DNA of 21,901 nucleotides from IMG/VR virus record IMGVR_UViG_3300007640_000279, positions 1 through 21,901 of that record; one strand, given 5' to 3'. Numbering within the stretch: the first letter of the stretch is position 1; every line of letters starts with the position of its first letter. The position numbers and the translations under genes were made by a program. Below, piece after piece: positions 5,674 through 21,265 of this stretch. The notes below the pieces were generated by a model. The model was not told where the DNA came from, ran no database searches, and saw only the letters and a program-made list of their open reading frames with translations. This stretch comes from a virus.

Positions 5674-6117
5674 TCAGTCCTCCAATAGGCGGGCCTCCTT
5701 GATAGCCTTCACCCCCTCTCGTACGCCTTCTTCGACGAACTCAGCGGGAGCCTGGGCGGAATACCCGTCGTTCAGGCGTTCAATGTAAGGCAGGTTGTTT
5801 GTGATGTGTACCTCGCTATTGCGGTCGCCGTCGTAGGCGGCCGAGACCGAGGCTGCTTGGGCGAGAGCGGCTTGCGCGTTCGCCTGTTCTCCGACACCGA
5901 GCCCCTCACCTGGAGCGTATGGGTCTATCGTTCCGTTGTACGGTTCGTCGAGCTGAGCGACCCAGTTGGACCGGGCCCGTCCTCTGTCTACCGGGGTAGA
6001 CATGACGACGGCTTGGTCTACCGCTAGTACGGTCTTGCGGACTATGCGGTCTGAGCCATCGGTGACCTCTACTGCGAGGTCCCCCATCCTCTTACCGAAG
6101 TCCGCAAATCCTGCCAT
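5674..6117 (-). CDS. HK97 gp10-like minor tail/tail completion protein
   Basis: A 147-residue protein resembling the HK97 gp10-like family. The recognisable parts are STPVDRGRARSNWVAQL (about residues 40-56), the beta segment VHITNNLPYIERLNDGYSAQ, and the C-terminal helix APAEFVEEGVREGVKAI. Family members act at the neck or during tail completion. It is unusual that the gene lies between the tail chaperone extension and the tape measure, because gp10-like genes normally sit among the head-tail connector genes. The start follows the stop of the chaperone extension by two bases, so coupling is likely. The family call is from remembered motifs and is good; the function at this location is less certain. 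Confidence 0.75.
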   Translation of the reverse strand: MAGFADFGKRMGDLAVEVTDGSDRIVRKTVLAVDQAVVMSTPVDRGRARSNWVAQLDEPYNGTIDPYAPGEGLGVGEQANAQAALAQAASVSAAYDGDRNSEVHITNNLPYIERLNDGYSAQAPAEFVEEGVREGVKAIKEARLLED

Positions 6118-6119
6118 GG

Positions 6120-6928
6120 CTAGTTTTCCTCACGTTCTTGTTCACGTTTGTCTTGTAGGTGGCGTAGGAAAACGTCGTCCATGGCTCTCACCATCTTGAC
6201 GAGGTACTCGAAGCCGTCGCCGGCGAAGCCTTTTCTCCTTGCGTATGCGTCGATCGCCGTCCAGGGGATCGGACCTGAGGCCCCCATGTCTGAGAGCCCT
6301 CGGCACGTGCTCAACTCTGTGAACGCCTCGTAGTACATCTCGAGGCCCGTGTACAGCGACGGAGCGTTAGCTATCGTCTCTGGCAGAGGCCGCCGTCTCT
6401 TGATGGCGGCCTCTATGATCTTGCGTTCAGTCGGTCCCTGCGTCAGCGAGTAGCTGAGGACCGCCGTCAGTTTCCCGCGTCGGCTTCAGCCTCGTTGGCG
6501 CGGAAGAGCGACACTTTCTGAGCCTGTTCGTAGACGTCCTGAAAGAGGTCTGGCAGCTTCTCGAAGAGGTCAATCACGTTCTCAACAGAGAAGGGGATAG
6601 CCTCACCGTTCTTCCCGACCATCTTGCCGTCGCCATGCTTCGTGCTGCCCCAGCCCCTGACCACGGTCTCAGCCACGGTCTCACGAAGCAACTGCTTCGA
6701 GCGTTCCTCAGGCATGCGCTCCTCTTGGATGAGGCGACGATAGGGGCGGGTCTTGTCGGCGAGCGCCTTCTTGAACCCTTCGTTCGAACCGCCGGCGCGA
6801 GCGACAGTGATGTAGAACGCTCCGTAGTCGAGCTCGATGCCGTCCGCCTCGACAGACTGGTCAGTCTCGAAGAGGGCGAACGGATTGTTCAGCACGTCGG
6901 CTGCGGTATCTTTGGTCTTGTCAGTCAT
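6120..6928 (-). CDS. Long tail assembly chaperone made by -1 frameshift (gpG-T analogue)
   Basis: Predicted 269-residue fusion: 153 residues of the short chaperone, then 116 residues read in the -1 frame after the heptamer at 6476-6470, ending at 6120. The extension starts LTAVLSYSLTQGPTERKII and continues RRRPLPETIANAPSLYTGLE, YYEAFTELSTCRG, PIPWTAIDAYARRKGF and MVRAMDDVFLRHL. This is the pattern of siphophage gpT-type extensions that bind the tape measure and recruit tail tube subunits. The conserved stretch before the first ATG in this frame (6338) is only reachable by frameshifting, and that ATG has no purine-rich ribosome binding site. Both facts argue against a separate small gene. It sits between the tail tube and tape measure genes, the standard place for this pair. 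Confidence 0.85.
6385..6414 (-). repeat. Perfect 10-bp hairpin inside the chaperone extension
   Basis: AGAGGCCGCC (6385-6394) is the exact reverse complement of GGCGGCCTCT (6405-6414), with a 10-base loop. It lies within the translated extension, 56 bases after the slippery heptamer. That is too far for the usual frameshift stimulator, though it could slow ribosomes or protect the message. It could also be a chance result of GC-rich codons. Confidence 0.4.
6432..6476 (-). promoter_or_regulatory. Programmed -1 frameshift signal: slippery heptamer plus stem-loop
   Basis: On the minus strand, GGGAAAC occupies 6476-6470 in the frame G GGA AAC, followed at once by the zero-frame TGA (6469-6467). 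This is the canonical X XXY YYZ form and differs from the lambda G-T site (GGGAAAG) only in the last base. After a 6-base spacer, a stem forms between CGGTCC (6463-6458) and GGACCG (6437-6432). A second stem stacks inside it, TCAGC (6457-6453) with GCTGA (6447-6443), leaving a 5-base loop and a 5-base bulge. Spacer length and stem position fit a stimulatory element. The -1 frame stays open for 116 codons with family-like sequence. Confidence 0.88.
6467..6928 (-). CDS. Short tail assembly chaperone (gpG analogue)
   Basis: A 153-residue unshifted product ending EAEADAGN followed by TGA. Recognisable stretches are ELDYGAFYITVARAGGSNEG, TRPYRRLIQEERMPEE, ETVVRGWG and FSVENVIDLFEKLPDLFQD, which resemble tail assembly chaperones of GC-rich siphophages. 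Such proteins coat the tape measure with the frameshifted form before tube polymerisation and are absent from the virion. The start ATG is preceded by AAGGA. The gene follows the tail tube gene with a 39-base gap. The last two sense codons (GGA AAC) are part of the slippery heptamer, so the stop codon directly after it helps to pause the ribosome at the shift site. Confidence 0.85.
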   Translation of the reverse strand: MTDKTKDTAADVLNNPFALFETDQSVEADGIELDYGAFYITVARAGGSNEGFKKALADKTRPYRRLIQEERMPEERSKQLLRETVAETVVRGWGSTKHGDGKMVGKNGEAIPFSVENVIDLFEKLPDLFQDVYEQAQKVSLFRANEAEADAGN

Positions 6929-19996: not shown

Positions 19997-20200
19997 TCAC
20001 TCTCCCTCGTTGAACATGAAGTCGGTGACCTCCTTCAGCTTCTCGGCCATGTAGCCGAGGCTGCCGACGTGACCGTAGTTGACTTCGTCAGGGTGCGCCT
20101 CGAACATGTTGTCGCTCAGGTCCTGCAGGCGCTTCAGCTGTGCGTCGATCTCAGCCTTCTTGGCGAGGAAGGCGTCGAGGGCTTTATCATTGTTCGTCAT
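19997..20200 (-). CDS. First leftward gene, small helical unknown protein
   Basis: A 67-residue protein: an amphipathic helix (KKAEIDAQLKRLQDLSDNMF), a short loop with AHPDEVNYGHVGSL, and a second helix (EKLKEVTDFMFNEGE). It resembles small conserved early phage proteins of unknown function. The start at 20200 follows AAGGAGACAGACA at ideal distance. Longer in-frame starts fall at or upstream of the predicted transcription start near 20220 and can be dismissed. It opens the leftward operon. Its leader is almost the same as that of the first rightward gene (see 20201-20390). Confidence 0.7.
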   Translation of the reverse strand: MTNNDKALDAFLAKKAEIDAQLKRLQDLSDNMFEAHPDEVNYGHVGSLGYMAEKLKEVTDFMFNEGE

Positions 20201-20226
20201 TGTCTGTCTCCTTGGTTGTTGGTGCC

Positions 20227-20255
20227 AATATAGGGGGTAACTGCGGGCGTGTAAA
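20227..20255 (-). promoter_or_regulatory. Leftward sigma70-type promoter
   Basis: On the minus strand TTTACA (20255-20250) and TATATT (20232-20227) are spaced by 17 bases, with an A/T-rich stretch upstream that could act as an UP element. Predicted transcription begins near 20220, about 20 bases before the first leftward ATG. The -35 and -10 each overlap an ATARGGGG-type motif, so repression is likely. It would drive the whole leftward operon unless late promoters exist that I cannot see. Confidence 0.75.
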
Positions 20256-20340
20256 CCCCCTATTTGCATTTTTCCCAACTTTTTTCCCCTATTATAGAGA
20301 GCGGGAAAAAAGTTGGGAAAAACGCAAATAGGGGGTTTAC
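20251..20340. repeat. 38-bp inverted repeat with one mismatch and 14-base loop
   Basis: Arms are 20251-20288 and 20303-20340, starting GTAAACCCCCTATTTGC and ending with its complement. The only mismatch is A at 20268 opposite C at 20323, which would be a G-U pair in a minus-strand RNA. The arms include phased A/T-tracts. The loop contains TATAAT on the minus strand. A terminator role is unlikely because genes diverge from it. Promoter/operator or replication origin roles fit better. Confidence 0.92.
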
Positions 20341-20366
20341 GGGTACCCCTTATTGCGGCATATAAG
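20336..20366 (+). promoter_or_regulatory. Rightward sigma70-type promoter
   Basis: TTTACG (20336-20341) at the outer end of the right repeat arm mirrors the left -35. TATAAG (20361-20366) is the best -10, at a spacing of 19 bases; CATATA (20359-20364) gives 17 but is a worse match. It is weaker than the leftward promoter by sequence. Motifs of the ATARGGGG type overlap both elements. Confidence 0.55.
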
Positions 20367-20391
20367 GGGTAACAACCACGGAGACAGACAC

Positions 20392-20628
20392 ATGTTCGAC
20401 CCAGTAATTGCCCACGAGGAACTCAGCGACGGCCACAAGAAACTTGTCGGCCTATATCAGGAAGTCCTACTGTCGGAAGACGAGGGCACCCTCGAAGACG
20501 ACATGTGGTTCCCGAAAGCCGTCAAGGCCGTCGGTGAAGACGCTGACGTCGTCATCTCTGAAGTGTCCGCTCGTTGGCCTCACGGTCAAGTGAGCGAACA
20601 ACAGATACGTCAACACTGTTCGATCTAA
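20392..20628 (+). CDS. First rightward gene, unknown small acidic protein
   Basis: A 78-residue acidic protein without recognisable motifs. It has helical stretches (SDGHKKLVGLYQEVLLSEDE; FPKAVKAVGEDADVVISEVS) and ends RWPHGQVSEQQIRQHCSI. The ATG at 20392 follows CGGAGACAGACAC. Starts further up in the same frame lie inside the promoter. It opens the rightward operon and shares its leader sequence with the first leftward gene, so both may be induced together early in infection. Confidence 0.65.
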   Translation: MFDPVIAHEELSDGHKKLVGLYQEVLLSEDEGTLEDDMWFPKAVKAVGEDADVVISEVSARWPHGQVSEQQIRQHCSI

Positions 20629-20866: not shown

Positions 20867-21265
20867 ATGACCACAACAGCAGAGCTCCTCGAGCAGCACA
20901 ACGAGTTCGCAGAGAAGTGGGGCAAGAAGCCCCTGAAGTCCTGGAAGCAGTCGAAGGACGCCCTACGGGAACGCATCGACGCCATGAGGGCGGAAGTCGC
21001 AGACGACGTGATCGGAGACGACGAGCCCGAGGCCCCGAAGCCGATCAAGCTCAGGGGCGCGATGATGCCCTCAGTCACCATCGGCGCACTCGTCAAGGAG
21101 CTCCTACTCATGGAGGACGGACTGTCCTACGACCTCATCGAGGAGGCCGTCAAGCGTGAGTTCCCTGAGGCGAAGACGACGCGCCGCTCCATCGCCTCAG
21201 TGGCCGCAGACCTCCGTCGCAAGGGCGTTGAGGTGCCGATGCGCAAGAAGGGGCGTCCAGCATGA
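20867..21265 (+). CDS. Unknown phage protein, possible winged-helix DNA-binding domain
   Basis: A 132-residue protein. Residues 1-45 include a helix with KSWKQSKDALRERIDAMRAE, a pattern common in small phage proteins. Residues about 50-65 are an acidic linker. Residues about 68-125 (SVTIGALVKELLLMEDGLSY, DLIEEAVKREFPEAKTTRRS, IASVAADLRRKGVEVPMRKK) look like a winged helix: two helices, a recognition-type helix starting at TTRRSIASV, and a short wing. A regulatory role is possible, and it would be a candidate for binding the operator cluster nearby, but this is inference. CACGGAGAAGACAG precedes the ATG, echoing the leader at 20371-20390. Confidence 0.62.
   Translation: MTTTAELLEQHNEFAEKWGKKPLKSWKQSKDALRERIDAMRAEVADDVIGDDEPEAPKPIKLRGAMMPSVTIGALVKELLLMEDGLSYDLIEEAVKREFPEAKTTRRSIASVAADLRRKGVEVPMRKKGRPA

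Follow-up and report, generated by a model that had tools for sequence, protein, structure and literature searches.

The window, by which is meant the entire stretch of DNA under analysis, is a 21.9-kb virus record (G000). Its DNA matches to named phages, all of which are short and at 68-70% identity, are to the roseophages RDJL1 and RDJL2 and to the Rhodobacter phages RcRudolph and RcSimone-Hastad. On the basis of these matches, together with the relatives of two genes referred to here as X and Y, the host is likely a member of the Rhodobacterales, and the phage, as judged by its relatives, would be a siphophage. Three contigs, L001-L003, belong to the same species (99.94-99.96% identity over the aligned length), and the segment 20190-20400 is identical in all three.

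Two sets of genes diverge from this segment. The leftward genes include a member of the pyrimidine dimer glycosylase family, the small and large terminase genes, and a Mu F-like gene, and the leftward set does lead to the terminase genes, as expected for the late operon proposed in an earlier note on this DNA. The glycosylase gene (pyrimidine dimer DNA glycosylase family, Pfam PF03013; 19336-19710, minus strand) lies close to the start of the leftward operon, and DNA similar to it occurs in RDJL1, RDJL2, and RcRudolph. Relatives of gene X were located with tblastn in RDJL1, RDJL2, RDJL6, and Ruegeria phage Tedan, and weakly in Pseudomonas phage phiH2 and a Janthinobacterium phage; relatives of gene Y are found in RDJL2 and RDJL6. 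Queries of viral_contigs with X and Y returned the same species and one additional locus, L093, which does not have the mirror. The features of the region are as follows.

19997-20200, minus strand: gene X, first leftward gene, 67 amino acids, phrog_14596, unknown function
20201-20220, minus strand: left leader with Shine-Dalgarno GGAG, abutting the ATG at 20200
20227-20232, minus strand: left -10, TATATT, 17-nt spacer (promoter scan)
20250-20255, minus strand: left -35, TTTACA (promoter scan)
20251-20288, minus strand: left arm of the inverted repeat, mirror orientation of the right-arm element
20256-20261, minus strand: AGGGGG adjoining the left -35
20289-20302, no strand: centre (loop), 14 nt, holding the axis at 20295.5
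20303-20340, plus strand: right arm of the inverted repeat, with A-tracts, TGGGAAAAACGCAAAT, AGGGGG, and TTTAC
20306-20389, plus strand: 84-bp unit repeated outside the window at 94% identity (L003:445-528 and L002:477-560, both minus strand)
20330-20335, plus strand: AGGGGG adjoining the right -35
20336-20341, plus strand: right -35, TTTACG
20345-20370, plus strand: dyad ACCCCTTAT / ATAAGGGGT spanning the right spacer and -10 (sequence, fold)
20359-20366, plus strand: right -10 candidates, CATATA (N17) or TATAAG (N19), inferred from sequence
20371-20390, plus strand: right leader (Shine-Dalgarno GGAG), separated by a single base from the ATG at 20392
20392-20628, plus strand: gene Y, first rightward gene, 78 amino acids, no family found
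20867-21265, plus strand: gene Z, third rightward gene, 132 amino acids

As can be seen, the inverted repeat and the pair of leaders are centered on a single axis at 20295.5, and this central claim of the earlier note was confirmed. The 38-nt arms (20251-20288 and 20303-20340) match at 37 of 38 pairs, are thus 97% complementary, and enclose the 14-nt loop, and the 20-nt leaders match at 19 of 20 pairs (95%). In the 21,901-base window this is the sole inverted repeat to pass a filter requiring a score of at least 18 and a span below 260. Alignment of the two outward halves gave a score of 80, whereas 500 shuffles of one half averaged 16.5 and did not exceed 28, and a single strand folded across the mirror has a predicted energy of -42.4 kcal/mol (z -11.8).

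The earlier note had also placed an outward-pointing -35, TTTAC(A/G), at the end of each arm; the last A or G lies one base beyond. On the left the match is good, with TTTACA-N17-TATATT matching at 10 of 12 positions in the promoter scan. The right promoter is weaker: its -35 is TTTACG, the -10 at N17 is CATATA (20359-20364, 3/6), an alternative, TATAAG (20361-20366), lies at N19, and the site was not listed by the promoter scan. Because the -10 regions differ, equal strength of the two promoters is not assured. The scan found three leftward promoter-like sites versus 0.3 in shuffles, the other two being 20319-20291 (10/12), which crosses the axis, and 20228-20199 (9/12). From these elements, leftward transcription would be expected to start near 20220 and rightward transcription near 20371-20373. 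The run of G residues that precedes each -35, hereafter the G-run, occupies -36 to -40. When GTTTAC is numbered -36 to -31, positions -40 through -44 are G, A, T, A, A in both arms of the window; the RDJL copies vary in this stretch.

Cassette copies in the species and in its roseophage relatives

The 84-bp unit of the right half recurs in the sister contigs, a short distance outside the window, as a third copy. That in L003 (445-528) has the orientation of the right half, is followed by a Shine-Dalgarno site and a 53-residue ORF, and retains the dyad at 20345-20370 apart from one base, the first in the left arm of that dyad. Beyond the -35, the right half of the window is closer to this third copy than to the left half, and thus the pair in the window is not one simple inverted duplicate. 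The third copy heads a block of ∼470 bp that is present in L002 and L003 and absent from L001. The block (L003:57-528) contains the promoter cassette, the small ORF, and a stem-loop; one boundary coincides with the upstream edge of the cassette, and the other lies past the stem-loop, which has no U-run and was not listed by the terminator scan. On one side, L003:529-1500 is 97% identical to L001:5402-6373, and on the other, L003:1-56 is 87.5% identical to L001:5342-5397. The flank directly beside the block is identical at 168 of 194 positions, and hence the surrounding area is mosaic. The block may have been gained or lost, and not necessarily as one clean insertion.

Additional copies of the core with the GGAGACAGAC leader are located on the minus strands of L001 (5013) and G001 (77), and by eye both are devoid of the A-tract/TGCA block. 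Exact copies of the GGAGACAGAC leader number five in the sequence searched, each of them 0-2 bases 5' of an ATG. Within the set of TerL relatives, nine exact cores were found, all in L001-L003, whereas permuted cores averaged 0.4 hits and never gave more than 7. The exact core is absent from every one of the remaining relatives, L004-L080, which were accordingly discarded as a source of further mirrored regions. One of them, L053, carries a very long imperfect inverted repeat at 5888-6149 with 99-nt arms and TTGCTTACCTTG-like units, the sequence of which is unrelated to that of the window. Beyond the window, at a distance of ∼2 kb rightward from the mirror, L001:5062-5259 holds an iteron-like cluster of five GGTTGTAAGGTC-like copies (two or fewer mismatches, both strands), three of which are direct repeats; this cluster is a candidate origin of replication.

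Exact AGGGGGTTTAC cores are not confined to the species. There are three in RDJL1, four in RDJL2, six in RDJL6, two in Tedan, and five in the species of the window, for a total of 20 distinct sites. An automatic test for a Shine-Dalgarno sequence followed by an ORF was passed by 19 of the 20, seven of these 19 with ORFs that run past the end of the sequence piece; the remaining site is truncated at the end of a contig, yet it shows GGAGACAGACAG-ATG. TATNNT at N17 is found in just 12 of the 20, and the two cores of Tedan have other -10 sequences. The exact core is absent from RcRudolph, RcSimone-Hastad, and the contig of L093. In a divergent region of RcSimone-Hastad (L085:9340-9390) there is a TTTACA-N17-TATATT sequence with a CCCCC...GGGG dyad within the spacer.

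Each of the X and Y relatives in RDJL6 has a core of its own, at 6640 and 2576, respectively; in the window the X and Y promoter-gene units stand back to back. The X junction of the Xiamenvirus roseophages RDJL1, RDJL2, and RDJL6 resembles that of the window in having a related X gene, a mirrored -35 and leader, and AGGGGGTTTACA on the X side. In each of the three the sides mirror one another from the -35 through the leader, and 0 of 500 shuffles reached the score. In RDJL1 and RDJL2, TATCAACAGCGACA lies on both sides of the junction, and ungapped mirrored arms of 49 nt (71-73%) extend outward from GTTTAC; the 54-56 nt between their mirrored -35 boxes are not palindromic. No ungapped inverted repeat was found at the RDJL6 junction. 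The junctions of all three differ in sequence from that of the window, however, the inner 38-bp palindrome is absent, and the other arm reads GTTTACA or ATTTACA without the G-run. The leftward gene opposing X in the RDJL phages weakly matches the N-terminus of Z (E 7e-5 to 5e-4, 33-39% of the length of Z), which suggests that their X junction is orthologous to the divergent junction of the window.

If each genome homogenizes its own promoter-leader family, this pattern would be the one expected. The earlier note had called for relatives to be checked for symmetric changes that co-vary, and the RDJL phages do carry mirrored promoters and leaders of different sequence at what is apparently the same junction. 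It had also held that relatives keeping one arm with the divergence intact would count against its reading, and this was observed in part: RDJL1, RDJL2, and RDJL6 maintain the divergence without the palindrome, and one arm lacks the G-run.

The G-run motif in viral and bacterial contigs

A search of viral_contigs with TAGGGGGTTTACA-N17/18-TATNNT gave at least 120 stretches, many of them T4-like, whereas a control with CCCCC in place of GGGGG gave 21. All 120 stretches (loci L097-L216, some sharing a contig) were analyzed, and they represent 100 distinct sites. These loci were chosen for the motif, and the figures obtained from them are therefore biased and describe those phages only. According to a simple ORF caller, 84 of the 100 distinct sites lie outside called ORFs. 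A downstream ORF is present at 86, at a median of 26 nt from the predicted start and within 50 nt in 61 of them; among the downstream genes are a group of T4-like DNA polymerases and one of CobS-like genes. The same loci contain 129 non-seed TTKAC-N17-TATAWT sites, in which each of the four positions preceding the -35 is G in 58-71% of cases; when six bases before the -35 are considered, 57 of these sites have four or more G residues and 30 have none or one. The spacing is 17 nt in 35 of the 41 non-seed GGGGTTTAC sites with TATAAT.

A narrower pattern, TAGGGGGTTTACA-N17-TATAWT, was found in 10 stretches of genome_contigs (257 Gb, bacterial and archaeal), nine of which are titled as MAGs. Eight of the 10 carry names that we take to be those of Clostridia. 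By our arithmetic, 10 stretches is a few-fold above random sequence of even composition. Of the 100 distinct viral sites, 86 fit the narrower pattern; as viral_contigs has no stated size in bases, the comparison is a qualitative one. Given this rarity, the motif was rejected as a general bacterial promoter, and it may be that the G-run is read by a host factor with few sites of its own. With respect to named phages, GGGTTTAC-N18-TATNNT is absent from T4, KVP40, S-PM2, P-SSM2, HTVC008M, Mosig, Cr30, DSS3phi2, SIO1, and phiM9, and also from RcRudolph, RcSimone-Hastad, and Tedan; C48C1 has one site. A simple explanation of the motif by a Rhodobacterales host is weakened by DSS3phi2 and SIO1.

Mirrored partners also occur among these sites. 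With two or fewer mismatches allowed, 8 of the 100 sites have one, versus a mean of 1.2 and a maximum of 4 for 50 permuted cores and two for same-strand tandem copies, and all eight partners have TATAAT at N17. With one or no mismatch the count is 5 of 100 (permuted mean 0.14, maximum 1), and no partner is exact. A search for exact divergent pairs yielded 83 stretches, of which 80 were analyzed, 52 were distinct, and 51 were scored. Two -10 boxes are present in 10 of these 51, one in 12, and none in 29. The convergent control gave 22 stretches, 18 of them distinct, with two -10 boxes in none and one in five. By eye, several of the exact divergent pairs resemble repeats of one coding sequence.

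In a T4-like contig, L087, a mirrored GGGGGTTTAC pair at 1943-2079 lies ahead of a gp55-like late sigma gene. The halves mirror one another only in a 15-nt core, with the score reached by 3 of 500 shuffles, and one promoter is directed into an upstream gene encoded by the opposite strand, such that L087 is not a case of divergent operons. A second contig of this kind is L086, and in L132 a copy facing the other way lies ahead of a gene similar to the gp55-like late sigma.

Searches of open-licence papers in PubMed Central did not turn up the G-run promoter, and none of the papers listed there as containing GGGGTTTAC is titled for such a promoter; the accessible part of PMC9004378 does not give the motif. 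The recurrence of the G-run promoter is more surprising than the mirror itself.

Explanations for the mirror

The cassette copies, their positions ahead of ORFs, the mirrored promoters in relatives, and the presence or absence of one block can be read directly from the DNA. The region is, with high probability, a divergent promoter pair composed of two outward-facing copies of a dispersed promoter-leader cassette. The order within such a cassette would be an A-tract/TGCA block, AGGGGG, a -35 of the T4-early type within GTTTAC, the spacer, a -10, a short Shine-Dalgarno leader, and the start codon. The A-tract/TGCA block is probably an UP element that would help RNA polymerase to bind via the -35 and -10, and the G-run would provide either a contact for a factor or a feature of the DNA itself. 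The host RNA polymerase with a sigma-70-like factor is predicted to start two operons here: a leftward one of small genes, then the terminase and head genes, at about 20220, and a rightward one of small genes at about 20372. Two polymerases would thereby start ∼150 bp apart and depart in opposite directions, and the matching leaders would give matching entry of ribosomes. The occurrence of transcription, its timing, the polymerase employed, and the route of duplication are what we infer beyond the DNA itself.

The long palindrome would then be the product of near-identical upstream halves set back to back; cassette copies traveling with small ORFs probably gave rise to it, through duplication or gene conversion among them. 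The earlier note envisaged a single promoter copied by inversion; duplicated, mirrored promoter-leader units stand, in that the third copy occurs singly and 19 of the 20 core sites have the expected leader and ORF, but the unit comes from a dispersed family, and the symmetry in the window arises from two of its members facing apart. The mirror is real, and its cause would be ordinary in kind, namely duplicated promoter cassettes.

It could be argued that the identity merely reflects convergent likeness of strong promoters within one phage, with no duplication at all, since each phage seems to own a promoter-leader family and the RDJL arms are alike mainly through common promoter and leader sequence. 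For the window this is improbable: the 37/38 identity reaches through the upstream bases, the third copy is 94% identical over 84 bp, and such identity exceeds what a consensus requires. Still less probable is the suggestion, offered as an alternative in the earlier note, that the palindrome is an origin of replication, or a cruciform for a replication or recombination protein, with the promoters incidental. A very stable hairpin is indeed possible, the arms and loop have a G+C content of 40% versus 61-62% in the 1-kb flanks, and the AT skew flips at the region, although the flip in gene direction would explain the latter as well. The half-units, however, are found singly elsewhere before ORFs, the iteron-like cluster of the species lies at another position (L001:5062-5259), and the relatives with the same junction have not kept the inner palindrome. 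Promoter mirroring recurs in other sequence and the cruciform does not, which makes an origin unlikely and argues against a conserved cruciform.

A further reading holds that the arms are mainly operators, on which a dimeric regulator would bind G-run/C-run dyads (AGGGG...CCCCT) around each -35 and exert joint control. C-runs do follow the -35 in many copies, as in AGGGGGTTTACAAGCCCC of the RDJL phages, and in the T4-like set they cluster at spacer positions 2-5 and accompany the G-run (27 of 140 G-run sites versus 4 of 74 others, Fisher p 0.007, seed and related sites included). On the other hand, the C-run is missing at 113 of the 140 G-run sites, and by eye the dyad spacing varies from ∼8 to 18 nt. 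As the main function of the arms this is doubtful, yet less so than the two readings above, and it could coexist with the cassette explanation; the C-runs suggest an operator in some copies.

Comparison with known systems begins with the T4-type early promoters. In the accessible text of PMC1524935, the T4 early -35 is GTTTAC at -36 to -31, an A-rich sequence is located at -40 to -44, and many early promoters of T4-like phages stand before novel ORFs. The likeness lies in the GTTTAC of the -35, the ∼17 nt to a TATAAT-like -10, and the A+T-rich DNA upstream; the left half, GGGGGTTTACA-N17-TATATT, has both the GTTTAC and this spacing, and the right half is weak at N17. The difference is that five G residues stand in place of the single G of T4, with A-T-A-A upstream of them, and that the phage of the window is, by its relatives, a siphophage. 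The G-run class thus resembles a T4-type early promoter in which the single G has been turned into a run.

Promoter early stem-loops (PeSLs) are mobile cassettes with a regulatory role in T4-like phages and consist of a stem-loop joined to an early promoter. The original papers on them are those of Arbiol in 2010 and Comeau in 2014. The available part of PMC4503421 describes PeSLs as mediating gene shuffling among related T4-like phages. In a similar manner, the block of L002 and L003 begins at a cassette and ends near a stem-loop, and its absence from L001 within a mosaic area fits an exchange of modules between close relatives. Unlike the carriers of PeSLs, the phage of the window is not T4-like, as judged by its terminase families and its roseophage-siphophage relatives, and the stem-loop of L003 has neither a U-run nor a terminator listing. 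For 98 segments upstream of the T4-like sites, the folding z averages -1.06 and falls below -2 in 19.

The SAS and ESAS elements of cluster K mycobacteriophages, as presented in the accessible portion of PMC3203893, are repeats that lie immediately ahead of the start codon in several genes and contain a Shine-Dalgarno core, and are in this regard similar to the leaders described here. They differ in sequence and in host group, the GGAGACAGAC leader being distinct from the cluster K 13-mer given there, and the leader in the window is tied to a promoter. The inverted repeat of an ESAS is 17 bp within one unit, whereas that of the window lies between two divergent units.

A broader proposal can be put forward tentatively. 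The G-run with its -35 and -10, AGGGGGTTTACA-N17-TATAAT, in many cases with a C-run following the -35, may form a virus-specific class common to unrelated tailed phages, both T4-like and RDJL-type siphophages; it is possible, if less than probable, that a common factor reads the G-run beside sigma region 4, that the class spread as mobile promoter-leader-ORF cassettes, and that back-to-back copies gave rise to mirrored control regions.

If the cassette explanation is true, the mirror would be a snapshot of phages gaining coordinated control by means of one copied cassette, with the divergent pair of operons receiving matching start and translation signals. The G-run promoter, frequent in viral contigs but scarce in bacterial genomes, is a sequence handle for the prediction of transcription units in uncultured phages. 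It also raises the testable question of which protein reads the G-run. The RDJL phages can be studied in culture on Roseobacter denitrificans OCh114.
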